From: Ochrobactrum quorumnocens
GTDB taxonomy: Bacteria > Pseudomonadota > Alphaproteobacteria > Rhizobiales > Rhizobiaceae
NCBI RefSeq assembly: GCF_002278035.1
Contig: NZ_CP022605.1
Span: 434,001 to 498,000, forward strand
Reading direction: 5' to 3'
Length of the DNA stretch: 64,000 nucleotides
Position numbers and translations under genes: made by a program. Each line of letters starts with the position of its first letter. Position 1 is the first letter of the stretch. The notes under the pieces are model-generated. The model did no database searches. It was given only the letters and a program-made list of their open reading frames with translations, and was not told where the DNA came from. This document shows, piece by piece, positions 9,241-21,413 of the stretch.

Positions 9241-9556
9241 TATGGATGGCCCACCCCTCCCGCCGGCACCAGTGTATGATGCCAGTGTTCAAGAGAGGAA
9301 GGAGCGAACCATGCAAATAATGATCGTTGGTATTGATCTGGGCAAGAATAGCTGCAGCCTTGTTGGGCTGGACGAAAGCGGAATGGTTGTTGTTCGAAAG
9401 CGGCTGCGGCGTGATGGAGTTATCGGTTTTGCTGCCAAACTGTCGCCATGTGTTATTGCGATGGAAGCTTGCTGTGGTGCCCATCATATGGGACGGTCAC
9501 TGGCGGCTCTGGGGCACGAGGTTAGACTCATGTCGCCGGAATATGTGCGGCCTTAC

Positions 9557-9588
9557 GTTAAGTAATGCTCACCTGACCATTACTTCAC
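9557..9588. repeat. near-palindrome at the break in IS110
   Basis: 32 bases with arms GTTAAGTAATGCTCA and TGACCATTACTTCAC (13 of 15 pairs match) around a CC centre. The core TAATGCTCACCTGACCATTA is almost the same as the 20-bp linker at 19309-19328, which also sits directly behind the K-P-Y-V codon of IS110 genes. Confidence 0.7.
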
Positions 9589-9875
9589 TAATCATCAGGT
9601 CACGATAATGCGGAGAGCCGTTGAAAGAGTGCACGGAACCCATTTAATTTCAGTTACTTAGCTGAAGATTTGCTTGGCATTATTTTGGTCTGAACTCATG
9701 CATTGGTTTGCCAACAGAAGCGCTATTACGCAAAAAAATATTGTAAAACTGGAAACTCAGCCTGTTCGTCTCGCTCGAAACCCAGTGAAATAATGCCAAG
9801 GACTTATGGGTGGAGGCTCCTGCAATCAAGGCGATCTGCGCGCCCTCCTTCGCATTATCGTGACCTGATGATTAG
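9588..9875. mobile_element. 288-bp element with 25-bp terminal inverted repeats (MITE-like)
   Basis: The left end 9588-9612 and the right end 9851-9875 are perfect inverted repeats of 25 bases (outermost CTAATCATCAGG, inner end ATAATGCG). The 238 bases between them hold no convincing gene. Size, perfect terminal repeats and lack of coding capacity fit a miniature inverted-repeat element. It sits inside the IS110 transposase gene, next to a palindrome. The parent transposon is unknown to me. Confidence 0.7.
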
Positions 9876-10304
9876 TCAAGGCTCAGAAAAACGATGACCG
9901 TGATGCAGAGGCGATCGCCGAAGCCGCAACTCGCCCCACCATGCGTTTTGTCGAACTCAAAAGTGAGGAACAACTCGACGTTCAGACGCTCCACCGCGTG
10001 CGCGACCGCCTGGTCGGTGAACGCACTTCGCTGACCAACCAGATCAGCAGCTTACTTTTGGAGCGCGGGCATGTCGTCGCACAAGGGCATGCTCGACTAC
10101 GGTTCTTGCTCGGCGAGTTGCTGGATACCGATGCGGTCGCACTGAGCCCGCGCATGGTGTTTCTGCTGGGTGACATGCGCACAAGCTGGGAGGAGCTTGA
10201 TCGGCGTATCGCAGCCTTTGATGCCGAGTTCGCAGCGATGGCCCGAGCCGATGTGCGGGCTCGGCGTTTAACAGAAATTCCCGGGATTGGGGCGCTGAGG
10301 ACAG

Positions 10305-10922
10305 GGCCGCTTTCGCGAATATGATCTGGGCTACATCCATATCGACGTCAAACATTTACCGAAGCTGCGGACCGCAGATGGAGAGATACGCAAGCGTTAT
10401 CTCTACGTAGCAATTGATCGCTGTTCCCGCTTCGTGCATCTGACTGTTTACGATGCTGAAAATGCAGCCAACGCGGTTGCCTTCCTGAGCCAGACACGAA
10501 AAGCATTTCCCTTCCGGATAACGCATGTGCTGACTGATCGCGGATCATGCTTTACAGCTGACAGCTTTGAAGAAGCCTGCGCAAAACTCAAAGTCATCCG
10601 CCGCACGACAAAGCCATATACGCCGCAGACTAACGGCATGGTGGAACGCTTTAACGGTCGGGTCGCGAGCGAGGTTCTCGGTATCAATGTCGCCGGCCAT
10701 GCAGACCTCGAAACACTACTCATCGGCTTCAACCATGCCTATAATCAACGAAGACAGCGGGTTCTTTCAGGAAAGTCGCCCGTCAACAAAGTAAAGCAAC
10801 ATCTTGAGCTGAATGCTCGCCTCGCCAACCCTCTTTACAAACCCGCAATTGACGGCGAACTCATGGCCAAAGTAGATGACGTGCTTTATTATGCCAATGA
10901 GGTCTCACAACCAGACAGCTAG
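10305..10922 (+). pseudogene. IS481-type transposase, 5'-truncated
   Basis: C-terminal two thirds of a DDE transposase with an integrase core (rve). Visible are FREYDLGYIHIDVKHLPKL (first D), HVLTDRGSCFTADSFEEACA (second D) and TNGMVERFNGRVASEVLG (E), then LNARLANPLYKPAID to the stop at 10920-10922. The N-terminal helix-turn-helix is missing because the sequence is fused to the truncated IS110 gene at about 10305. No start codon of its own; not functional. Confidence 0.8.
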
Positions 10923-10997
10923 GCAAGAGCAGACAGAAGCATGTTGATATTAACATCATTTGGTGCTATTTTTGGCGCCTCAACACGGAGTCAGATT

Positions 10998-11198
10998 ATG
11001 CGCTCAACCATCAACCTTGATGACAGTCTTTTAGAAAAAGCCAAATTGTTGACCGGCACGAAAGAGACAGCCGCTTTAGTCCGACAAGCGTTAGAAACAC
11101 TTGTGCGACTGGAGACCGGTAAACGCCTTATCGCCCTTGGAGGCACGATGCCTGACGTTGAAGCAGCCCCTCGCCGCCGGAGCTCAGTGGATAAGTGA
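10998..11198 (+). CDS. vapB: VapB-type antitoxin (ribbon-helix-helix)
   Basis: Antitoxin of 66 residues. MRSTINLDDSLLEKAKLLTG at the N-terminus is a ribbon-helix-helix strand and helix of the VapB/DUF2191 type. The tail LIALGGTMPDVEAAPRRRSS would wrap the toxin. The start at 10998 is chosen because the family begins with R-T-T/S-I-N-L-D; the open frame upstream carries no similarity. Its stop overlaps the GTG start of the PIN-domain gene by four bases. Sits directly behind IS481 debris. Confidence 0.88.
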   Translation: MRSTINLDDSLLEKAKLLTGTKETAALVRQALETLVRLETGKRLIALGGTMPDVEAAPRRRSSVDK

Positions 11199-11572
11199 TA
11201 CTGGCAGACACTTCAATTTGGATTGACCATTTCCGCGGCGGCGATAATGAGCTTATTAAGATTATCGGTGATGATCTTTTGCTTTGCCATCCAGCGATTG
11301 TTGGCGAACTTGCGTTGGGCAGTCTCCGGGACAGGACGAGTGTCTTGGCTTTTTTGAATGTGCAGCGTGAAGCTGTAGTCGCAACCCATGATGACGTCAT
11401 GACTATGATTGAAAAGCACTGCATTTTTAGCATGGGCATTGGCTATACTGATGCCCACCTGCTGGCGTCAGTTCTACTCGACCGGCGAACATCCTTATGG
11501 ACCCGAGACAAGCGCTTAAAGGTTGCGGCTGAAAAAGCCGACGCACGCCTTTACGAGCCGTTTCACAATTGA
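11195..11572 (+). CDS. vapC: VapC toxin (PIN-domain ribonuclease)
   Basis: 125-residue PIN-domain toxin. Acidic active-site residues are seen at the N-terminus (ILADTSIWIDHF), in the middle (VGELALGSL) and near the C-terminus (GYTDAHLLASVLL, LWTRDKRL). VapC proteins cleave tRNA or rRNA. Start is GTG inside the stop of the VapB gene (GTGA), indicating translational coupling. The module looks intact. Confidence 0.9.
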   Translation: MILADTSIWIDHFRGGDNELIKIIGDDLLLCHPAIVGELALGSLRDRTSVLAFLNVQREAVVATHDDVMTMIEKHCIFSMGIGYTDAHLLASVLLDRRTSLWTRDKRLKVAAEKADARLYEPFHN

Positions 11573-18692: not shown

Positions 18693-18973
18693 GGCACTGT
18701 TACTTTTACCTAAGCGTACGCATCAGTGGCGATAACTGGTGATGACCGAACCTCGTTCTTCGCTTTATCGTGGCCATCGTTATCCATCTGAGATTAATGC
18801 AGAGGCGGTGTGGTTATATTTCCGCTTTCCACTGAGCTTTCGCATGATCGAAGATATGTTAGCTTATCGCGGGATCTTCGTCACACATAAGACAGTTTAC
18901 GAATGGGCTGAGAAATTCGGACAGGCCTATGCCAGTAATATCCGTCGTCGCACGCCGCGCCATGGCGATAAAT
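18693..18973 (+). pseudogene. IS6-family transposase 5' fragment (lineage A relative)
   Basis: Left IS end GGCACTGTTACTTTTACC at 18693, then a transposase start MTEPRSSLYRGHRYPSEINA at 18742 (or one codon before). The protein follows lineage A (AVWLYFRFPLSFRMIEDMLA, RRRTPRHGDK) but with several substitutions, so it is a sister element. It stops at the first catalytic region, where an IS110-type sequence begins at about 18974. The C-terminal fragment at 20536-20772 may be the other end of the same element. Confidence 0.78.
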
Positions 18974-19051
18974 GTTGGGATGGACGGTCCTCGAACGGCA
19001 TTGAAATGTGCCAGAGTGAGTTGTTAACGATCTCAAGCGAAGGAGCCGTCC

Positions 19052-19309
19052 GTGGATCAGATTATCCGTATTGGCATGGATACGTCAAAGCATGTCTTTC
19101 AATTGCATGGTGTGAACGCCGCCGAGCAACCGATCCTGCGCAAGAAGATGCGCCGTAAGGAGATGGTGGATTTCTTCGCGAAATGCCCACCGACCGTGAT
19201 TGTGATCGAAGCCTGCGCCGCTTCGCATCACTGGGCGCGGGTGCTGACAGGGTTCGGACATGATGTAAAGTTGATCGCACCACAATTGATGAAGCCCTAC
19301 GTGAACTGA
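19052..19309 (+). pseudogene. IS110-family transposase 5' half
   Basis: MDQIIRIGMDTSKHVFQLHG begins at 19052; the element's upstream part starts near 18974. First catalytic Asp in RIGMDTSK and Glu in VIEACAASHHW. The reading stops after LMKPYVN at 19309 exactly where the IS110 copy at 9311 is broken, and runs into a 20-bp palindrome. Everything downstream of this codon is absent. Confidence 0.82.
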
Positions 19310-19328
19310 TGGTCAGGTGACCATTACT
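19309..19328. repeat. 20-bp palindromic linker joining two IS110 halves
   Basis: On the minus strand the linker reads TAATGGTCACCTGACCATCA; its two halves are nearly complementary. It connects the 3' broken ends of two IS110 genes arranged head to head. It differs at only two positions from the core of the palindrome at 9557-9588. Confidence 0.7.
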
Positions 19329-19549
19329 TGAAGAACGGCTTCACATAGACAGGTGGGATCAGCCGCACTTCATGCCCCAGCTTCTCAAACTCGCGACCTC
19401 AGCCATGGGCGGTCGCACAGGCTTCCATCGCAACAATGCACTTTGGCTGCCCGGCAACAAAAGGCAAAATCTGACCCATTTGAGCCTGCGCCGTGGCATT
19501 GGAAGACGCGCTTTGCCAAGTCAATTCCAATGATGGTAACTTCTGACAT
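19329..19549 (-). pseudogene. second IS110-family transposase 5' half, opposite orientation
   Basis: Starts MSEVTIIGIDLAKRVFQCHG at 19549 on the minus strand. After GAGSN the frame shifts with an internal deletion. The other frame continues QILPFVAGQPKCIVAMEACA, hits a TGA in place of an expected Trp codon, and then reads REFEKLGHEVRLIPPVYVKP to FFK at 19329-19331. The break follows the same aligned codon as in the other two IS110 copies. Clearly inactive. Confidence 0.78.
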
Positions 19550-20532: not shown

Positions 20533-20834
20533 TGTGATCATCGCCTGCATAAAGGCTTGAACAATCGGGCCGAGAATTCACATCAACCGATAAGACGGCG
20601 AGAGCGCGGCATGAAGCGCTTCAAGTCAGCACAACACTTGCAGCGTTTCGCATCCATTCACGACCCGATCTACAACCTTCACCATTTTCCCCGCGACCGC
20701 TTCACCTCTGCCATTCACCGAGAATTACGCCAAACCGCCAATACTATCTGGCGCGATATCGCTGGCCTGTAATCTGCGCAATCACTACGTCATACTTCAG
20801 CACGCATCTGCGCACAGGTTAAGGTTACGGTGCC
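20533..20834 (+). pseudogene. IS6-family transposase 3' fragment (lineage A relative)
   Basis: Carries CDHRLHKGLNNRAENSHQPI, the catalytic Glu and the C-terminus to the stop at 20770-20772, then the IS end (complement of GGCACCGTAACCTTAAC) to about 20834. It has a few substitutions relative to the intact lineage A copies. Likely the other end of the element whose 5' part is at 18693, with the middle replaced by IS110 and other DNA. Confidence 0.75.
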
Positions 20835-20837
20835 TGT

Positions 20838-21128
20838 CTATGCAGCCGGTTGCAATCTCTGCACTACTGGCCGGTCGCGCTCCTGAGCCTTCGACAACTC
20901 GTAATTGGCCTGCAAGTTCATCCAAAAGCGAGCAGTGCTTACACCTGCCTGCTCTAGCCTGATCGCCAGATCAGGGCTAATCCCGGCATGGCCATTGATA
21001 ATTCGCGACAGCGTAGTTCGTGCTATTCCGAGCCGATGAGCGGCTTCAGTGACTTCTAGACCCAACGGCATCAACACGTCTTCGCGCAGTAGTTCACCGG
21101 GATGGGGATGGTTTTTCATCATGTTCAT
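20838..21128 (-). CDS. higA: HigA antitoxin
   Basis: 96-residue Xre-type antitoxin of the HigA/VapA family. [20 protein letters not shown] is the hallmark N-terminus, followed by the helix-turn-helix ([20 protein letters not shown]) and [20 protein letters not shown]. The toxin gene lies 6 bases upstream on the same strand. Starts at 21128, with an in-frame ATG six bases further in also possible. Autoregulation through this helix-turn-helix is expected. Confidence 0.93.
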
Positions 21129-21134
21129 TATCCT

Positions 21135-21413
21135 TCAATGATAGTCTTTGTAATCGACTAGTTCCGCGTCGGCCCCAATGAAACGAAACGTGACCCGCCA
21201 GTTACCGTTGACCCACACTGACCAATGTCCTTCTAGATCGCCATGAAGTGGATGAAGCCGGTAGCCCGGATGGTCTAGCTCTCCCGGCTTGATCGCGGCA
21301 TCCAGCACCGCCAAAATGCGCTTCAGTTTCGGCGCGTGTGCCGCCTGCACGCCACGGGTCGAACCTGTTTCATATAGGCGCTTAAGGCCTTTGTGACGGA
21401 AGCTGATTATCAT
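21135..21413 (-). CDS. higB: HigB toxin (RelE family)
   Basis: 92-residue plasmid-maintenance killer of the HigB/RelE family, a ribosome-dependent mRNA interferase. Core motifs IISFRHKGLKRLYETGSTRG, LHPLHGDLEGHWSVWVNGNW and RVTFRF are present, with the basic and aromatic residues of the active cleft. Forms an operon with higA. Intact. Confidence 0.93.
   Translation of the reverse strand: MIISFRHKGLKRLYETGSTRGVQAAHAPKLKRILAVLDAAIKPGELDHPGYRLHPLHGDLEGHWSVWVNGNWRVTFRFIGADAELVDYKDYH

Follow-up and report, generated by a model that had tools for sequence, protein, structure and literature searches.

The window, as we call the 64,000-nucleotide stretch of Ochrobactrum quorumnocens DNA analyzed here, contains an IS110-family transposase gene that is split by a short insert (Table 1). 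The reading frame that opens at 9311 shares 71% identity over residues 1 to 84 with an intact IS110 from Lichenicola (tblastn) and closes on a TAA stop codon directly after the hexamer GTTAAG (9557-9562). An earlier note on this DNA had placed the break after ...YVRPYVK, and the gene does stop there, at 9562. With an intact S. fredii IS110 protein as the tblastn query, the 5' half ends at residue 84 (9562). The 3' half covers residues 83 to 229 in tblastn, from 9875 onward. The 5' half alone has no Pfam match at 1e-3. IS110-family proteins combine a DEDD transposase domain with a Transposase_20 domain; for the piece at 9878-10303, PF01548 is the only Pfam match, and the gene ends before most of the second domain. 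There, a truncated DDE integrase-core (rve) transposase (10304-10922) abuts the IS110 3' half, cutting the broken gene again. Two small gene pairs lie beside IS110 remnants, at 10941-11572 and 20838-21413; by eye, both are toxin-antitoxin-like, one VapBC-like and the other HigBA-like.

The insert begins with the near-palindrome that the earlier note had described, in which 13 of 16 positions pair across 32 bp (9557-9588). We divide it into an outer 6-bp spacer (L6), a 20-bp core (P20), and an inner 6-bp spacer (I6); a third spacer (R6) precedes the 3' half of the gene. A 33-bp inverted repeat (9583-9615 and 9848-9880, 94% complementary) closes the insert. When the window was searched with the 20-mer TAATGGTCACCTGACCATTA at up to 3 mismatches, two sites were found (9563-9582 and 19307-19326), each matching both strands, and none appeared in 100 dinucleotide shuffles. 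The core therefore recurs at one other IS110 break, not at several as had been claimed. The exact P20 pattern has its sole match in the entire window genome at 9563-9582.

At 19307, the palindrome stands alone between two IS110 5' halves in inverted orientation. With the S. fredii query, the plus-strand copy ends at residue 83 (19303), followed by one mismatching codon, and the minus-strand copy ends at residue 84 (19327). Apart from that mismatching codon in the 19052 copy, all three 5' halves in the window stop at the same aligned codon, as originally proposed. Their identities to the Lichenicola reference are 71% (the 9311 copy), 32%, and 45%. By eye, the segments at 18739-19010 and 20557-20772 resemble the N-terminal and the C-terminal portion of a single IS6-family transposase, and the ~1.5 kb between them holds the 19307 palindrome with its two IS110 5' halves.

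Table 1. Positions of the features at the two IS110 breaks in the window.
Feature	Position	Strand	Basis or remark
IS110-family transposase 5' half	9311..9562	+	84 codons, two spacer codons counted in
Outer 6-bp spacer L6 (GTTAAG)	9557..9562	+	Position by homology with 51 one-palindrome insertions
20-bp near-palindrome P20 (TAATGCTCACCTGACCATTA)	9563..9582	none	
Inner 6-bp spacer I6 (CTTCAC)	9583..9588	+	
Miniature RIT-derived body, 286 bp, without recombinase gene	9589..9874	+	Aligned to full RIT ends
Left terminal inverted repeat	9589..9615	+	
Inner inverted repeat, left arm (CTTGGCATTATTT)	9673..9685	+	RIT counterpart CTCCGCATTATTT in L001
ritC 3'-end remnant up to stop codon	9759..9788	+	Aligned with the right ends of RITs
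Inner inverted repeat, right arm (AAATAATGCCAAG)	9788..9800	-	RIT counterparts at the ritC stop in L001, L002, and L005
Right terminal inverted repeat	9848..9874	-	
6-bp spacer R6 (GTCAAG), gene-3' side	9875..9880	+	
IS110 3' half	9881..10321	+	Restarts with AQKNDDRDAE; PF01548 positions 92-151, E 9.8e-12
Second IS110 5' half	19052..19306	+	Ends in GTGAAC (19301-19306)
Lone P20-like palindrome between two inverted IS110 5' halves	19307..19326	none	
Third IS110 5' half, decayed	19327..19543	-	Ends in TTCAAG; tblastn residues 2-84, in two pieces

Relatives and origin of the insert

A distant DNA search of plasmids returned 38 records. On Salipiger pTPRO8 (locus L001), S. medicae pMl2 (L002), and Roseomonas p2 (L005), the right end of the insert matches where a three-gene block of tyrosine recombinases ends, and an IS110 3' half directly follows the trio (annotated in L001 and L002, read from the sequence in L005). 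From their gene order and overlaps, we named these blocks RIT elements (recombinase in trio, ritABC), after descriptions in the accessible parts of PMC3414803 and PMC2864759. The genes of L001 overlap at ATGA, and all three of its Rit proteins match Phage_integrase and carry the box I arginine motif, HxxR, and C-terminal tyrosine context (RHRY-type residues).

A scan of species genomes identified 72 RitC loci. Together with four plasmid loci and the window, these made 77 scored rows, 38 of which had both ends readable. Among the readable rows, P20 was found at one end in 32 (13 left, 19 right), at both ends in three, and at neither end in three. The last group, as defined by our scoring rule, consists of L053, which has no readable gene on one side; L081, which has an indel in P20; and L084, which is mis-registered. 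L118 likewise lacks P20. Later additions came from S. medicae ml42, other Salipiger plasmids, B. elkanii, Hoeflea, and sphingomonads. S. medicae ml42 has 10 RIT copies over three plasmids, eight of them with one P20. In Sphingobium DEHP117 (G248), near-identical pairs of RITs spaced ~7.6 kb from each other are found at several contig ends; these ends may be misassembled, and the pairs may be duplicates produced by assembly. A search for RITs in viral contigs gave 11 pattern stretches, none of them a relative.

The left ~125 bp and the right ~116 bp of the window body align to the ends of full RITs. The best right-end match is to L043 (96/116), and the right-end alignment extends over the final codons of ritC and its stop codon (9759-9788). 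The terminal inverted repeats, ~28 to 34 bp in RITs, are present and of the same sequence type, and a palindrome overlaps one end (9557-9588). The three adjacent, overlapping genes that make a RIT autonomous (ritA, ritB, and ritC) are missing. Judged by its sequence, the insert at 9557-9874 is a RIT-derived, internally deleted, nonautonomous element that has kept both ends, has lost the three tyrosine-recombinase genes between them, and occupies a RIT target site. The window copy cannot move by itself. The window genome contains no close RitC (best match, 29%), and a RitB search of 35 genomes of the genus gave one match at E 1e-30 (33% identity) and none in the window's own genome. Since the window genome has no close RIT gene, mobility of the window copy is unsupported.

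Two further miniatures interrupt IS110 genes. One, from Hoeflea (L003), is 516 bp long and retains part of ritC; the other (L091) is 601 bp long, with a truncated P20 and an IS110 3' half that starts at residue 83 (tblastn). The internal deletions differ among the three, and miniature derivatives of RITs thus exist. We lean toward the view that the window miniature formed in place, that is, that a full RIT inserted and then lost its middle, leaving a dead fossil and not a mobile element. The window genome has a single copy of the miniature, neither the genome nor the genus has close RIT genes, and each of the three miniatures has lost a different interior. Set against this, the window copy keeps both ends, all spacers, and P20, and copies moved in trans would look alike.

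Palindrome, empty sites, and target genes

Although RITs lie in both orientations, P20 adjoins the 5' half of the interrupted gene. We compared its asymmetric center among copies from three multicopy genomes: 10 of 11 from Sphingobium DEHP117 (L081 was left out), 8 of 10 from S. medicae ml42 (L116 and L118 were left out), and 6 of 6 from Salipiger, each set with both insertion orientations. P20 reads identically in the RIT frame in all 24 tested copies and flips in gene coordinates. Because the asymmetric center is fixed relative to the RIT, P20 is part of the element. In at least one pair of lineages, Leisingera (L016) and Salipiger, P20 has opposite orientations in the RIT frame.

Empty sites point the same way. 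Six records were considered, of which three were informative; in the others (L125, L126, and L127), the partner flank was not found, was too diverged, or lay beside a recombinase gene. The empty counterpart (L122) of a B. elkanii RIT (L103) has flanks identical over 300+300 bp and contains TTGGAA, which is the R6 of the insertion and not its L6 (CTTGAG). Likewise, an intact S. fredii gene (L123), 96% identical to the flanks of S. medicae L120, contains GTCAAA, again R6 and not L6 (GTGAAG). The empty site for L117 (L124) is one base from R6 and one base from L6, matching neither exactly. The palindrome is missing from all three. Since L122 and L123 keep only R6, insertion adds the unit L6-P20-I6-body and leaves the original 6 bp of the target attached to the 3' half.

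Several simpler accounts fail on these data. Target-site duplication is rejected, since L122 and L123 carry only R6. The earlier note had taken GTTAAG and GTCAAG in the window for a target-site repeat; the empty sites of the relatives give the two hexamers different origins, and by that comparison the L6 of the window copy would have been brought in by the element. The inserted unit would thus start at GTTAAG, not at the TAATGG that had been proposed as the beginning of its ends. The empty sites and the fixed orientation in the RIT frame also rule out the target gene as the source of the palindrome. A rule by which I6 is the complement of L6, as seen in L002 and L005, does not hold generally (11 of 44 unique insertions).

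The palindrome might instead be an independent tiny element or hairpin target that was in IS110 first, with RITs inserting beside it later. The 19307 site, where the palindrome occurs without any RIT, speaks for such an account. We nevertheless regard it as very improbable: the orientation of P20 is tied to the RIT body and not to the gene in 24 of 24 copies, the three empty sites have no palindrome, and the window genome holds the exact pattern once. The lone copy itself sits between 5' halves, the arrangement expected once a RIT flanked by P20 on each side has been excised. Such RITs are found between two 5' halves at L006, L020, L034, and L116, and losing one would leave the order 5' half-P20-5' half. 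We therefore propose that the 19307 palindrome is the scar expected from RIT loss.

Where RITs insert can be read from 51 insertions with one P20, which lies on the left (ritA) side in 22 and on the right (ritC) side in 29. The interrupted genes, classified by running Pfam on one or two representatives per class, encode IS110 (28), ArdC (14, plus L041, which is mis-registered by one base), IS66 (2), IS21 IstA (1), IstB (1), and AAA_34 (4). The targets come from at least six gene families, IS110 being just one of them. The 28 IS110 insertions, all from alpha-proteobacteria and in both orientations, comprise 26 RITs and 2 miniatures, and the RITs are ~3.8 kb long except for L023 (5.3 kb). By tblastn, the 5' flank ends at residue 82|83 in 27 of 28 cases and the 3' flank starts at residue 83 in 26 of 28. 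L023 is off on both sides, its 5' flank being a short stub beside another IS110 end, and L043 is off on the 3' side by a frameshift.

In alpha-proteobacteria, 25 unique insertions, the window's counted in, use this IS110 codon. It is highly unlikely that a single, previously broken IS110 gene gave rise to the window's three broken copies, although these share a break codon and their palindromes are similar; the earlier note had said that such a descent would refute its proposal. The copies are too divergent for that (71%, 32%, and 45% to the Lichenicola reference), the same codon is cut in the 25 unique insertions, and we reject a common broken ancestor on the divergence of the target genes. 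Hardly any weight attaches to an origin from a DDE transposase, whether of the RNA-guided IS110 type or another, for which a short element with inverted ends inside a transposase gene might speak: RITs have matching ends, inner repeats, and ritC 3' end, the RIT relatives make no target duplication, and 6-bp spacers are typical of tyrosine recombinases.

Around the spacer, two triplets recur. At unique sites, TAY lies 13 to 15 bp before the spacer in 25/25 IS110, 11/11 ArdC, 4/4 AAA_34, and 1/4 other targets, the single "other" site being the mis-registered ArdC insertion L041. The triplet GAY lies 13 to 15 bp after the spacer in 25/25 IS110, 9/11 ArdC, 0/4 AAA_34, and 2/4 other targets. Inside one gene family, the triplets may reflect protein conservation alone. 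What is suggestive is the agreement of TAY across unrelated families.

Targets are also clustered on a RitC tree, with 15 changes compared to a shuffled mean of 28.8 and a value as low in 0 of 200 shuffles. The tree forces at least five changes for the IS110 label and at least five for the ArdC label. Label changes that are few but repeated indicate that lineages keep a target yet have switched several times. The tree covers 62 rows, 14 of them unlabelled, with labels assigned by short motifs and with L080 and other broken RitC rows left out; one set of identical proteins falls in two groups. At L117, on S. medicae ml42 pMl2, the interrupted IS110 gene lies directly downstream of the plasmid repC, and several related Sinorhizobium plasmids have IS110 genes at the same place.

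Proposed joint and spacer register

Together, an end, a 6-bp spacer, and an arm of P20 resemble a tyrosine-recombinase core site. From this arrangement, we infer that the RIT recombinases link both ends of the element through 6 bp-P20-6 bp, which would create a joint with two mirror-image cores. A target (5' arm, 6 bp, 3' arm) could then recombine with either core, and the element would accordingly land in either orientation. After integration, the 5' half of the gene would have P20 next to it, and the 3' half would keep the 6 bp of the original target. No closed joint or tandem RITs were found in 135 loci, the viral contigs, or 10 RIT-bearing genomes or records. On C. necator pHG1, a perfect 32-bp 6-20-6 palindrome (L104:2092-2123) adjoins the inverted repeat of a distant RIT (RitC 41%), which suggests that the anatomy of the joint extends beyond alpha-proteobacterial RITs. 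L116, which has two IS110 5' halves, and L118, which has two 3' halves, are both on S. medicae ml42 pMl2. The RITs with two P20 copies and L118 look like products of recombination between RIT copies, with L116 and L118 as reciprocal products.

As a whole, we consider it very probable that the window insert is a RIT-derived miniature at the RIT target codon, with a palindrome that travels with the element and integration through a joint of the kind inferred above. The earlier note's proposal of a recombination system that targets this IS110 site, palindrome included, survives in this form; the system is not an unrecognised one, but RIT, a known family.

The spacers may also hold a record of past transposition. 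In such a register, the three 6-bp spacers of each RIT insertion would record its last three targets, the 3'-half spacer standing for the current target, the inner spacer for its predecessor, and the outer spacer for the target before that. Because integration would proceed at whichever of the two cores in the joint is older, the element would flip at every hop. We rate this reading a little short of an even chance, and the rule as only suggestive. In DEHP117, which has 11 copies, nine rows were usable after removal of L041 and L081 (misregister or indel), and eight of the nine have an orientation-flipped parent, representing 5 distinct target sites. The non-flipping alternative fits no row. 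Specifically, the outer and inner spacers of four other sites, all in the opposite orientation, are predicted from L044 (CTCGCC, CTGGCG, GCCAGG); one of these four, L085, predicts L066, also in the opposite orientation. In G265, the step from L129 to L128 fits the register, while the non-flipping alternative fits the hexamers but not the orientation. Counted as events, six of six hops in DEHP117 and G265 are flips.

Other genomes are less readable. The spacers of S. medicae ml42 vary too little, which leaves this genome ambiguous: L114 and L120 agree with the register (L120 also as a non-flipping descendant of L114), L113 lacks a parent, no parent consistent in orientation exists for L115 or L117, and L111, L112, and L119 could each derive from several parents. 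Salipiger gives no information on the register. Misassembly around RIT repeats could imitate or mask parts of the pattern. If the register is true, transposition pedigrees would be readable from a single genome, and it would account for a joint with two mirror-image cores.

Comparison with known elements

The RIT family, its inverted repeats, and a palindrome are already known. RIT elements have been described since ~2009, and the accessible text of PMC3414803 and PMC10214605 reports no laboratory transposition. The accessible text of PMC3414803 notes the palindrome at the inverted repeat without explanation and gives no target rule; its repeat search was convincing only for the inverted repeat and palindrome. 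Single RIT insertions have been reported in an IS66 tnpA, radC, and a Tn6049-like transposase gene (parts of PMC3414803 and PMC2864759), and target specificity is entered as "not tested" for RIT in Table 1 of PMC10214605, as far as that text is accessible. One paper calls the need for three recombinases difficult to understand (PMC3414803/PMC10214605, accessible parts). Within the accessible parts of the open literature covered (PMC3414803, PMC10214605, PMC2864759, PMC8138268, and PMC5385486), we found no IS110/ArdC target rule, 6-20-6 joint, empty-site result, or miniature RIT; Ricker 2013 (Plasmid) and Nielsen 2017 lie outside this set, and either may contain parts of these. The anatomy described here supplies exact element borders, an insertion-site rule, and a predicted joint. 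It accounts for the one-codon cuts in IS110, ArdC, and other plasmid or transposon genes of RIT-bearing genomes.

Like full RITs, the window element has terminal inverted repeats and an overlapping palindrome (compare the accessible description in PMC3414803). It also occupies the same IS110 target codon and keeps a 3' remnant of ritC. RITs are ~3.8 kb long and carry recombinase genes, whereas the window body has 286 bp and none. MITEs, commonly understood as multicopy derivatives of DDE transposons, are likewise short and noncoding and keep the ends of a larger element. In contrast to the many near-identical copies per genome that characterize MITEs, the window genome has one copy of its element, which is recombinase-derived.

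Closer parallels are found among tyrosine-recombinase systems. According to the accessible text of PMC10214605, strand-biased circularizing elements (SE) and Tn554 resemble RITs in using tyrosine recombinases and in carrying 6-bp spacers between sites; Tn554 also resembles them in making no target duplication (a title cited in PMC10214605). The full RITs with empty sites L122 and L123 show both the lack of target duplication and the 6-bp footprint, with L124 one base off both hexamers. SE and Tn554 have one 6-bp footprint, whereas RITs have two spacers around a palindrome and insert in both orientations. The gene sets of SE and Tn554 (IntA-Tfp-IntB-Srap and TnpABC) are absent; the RIT relatives have three tyrosine recombinases in a row. 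In the multi-tyrosine-recombinase system described in the accessible part of PMC10214605, several recombinases act jointly, like those of RITs, but four genes are required, unlike in RITs.
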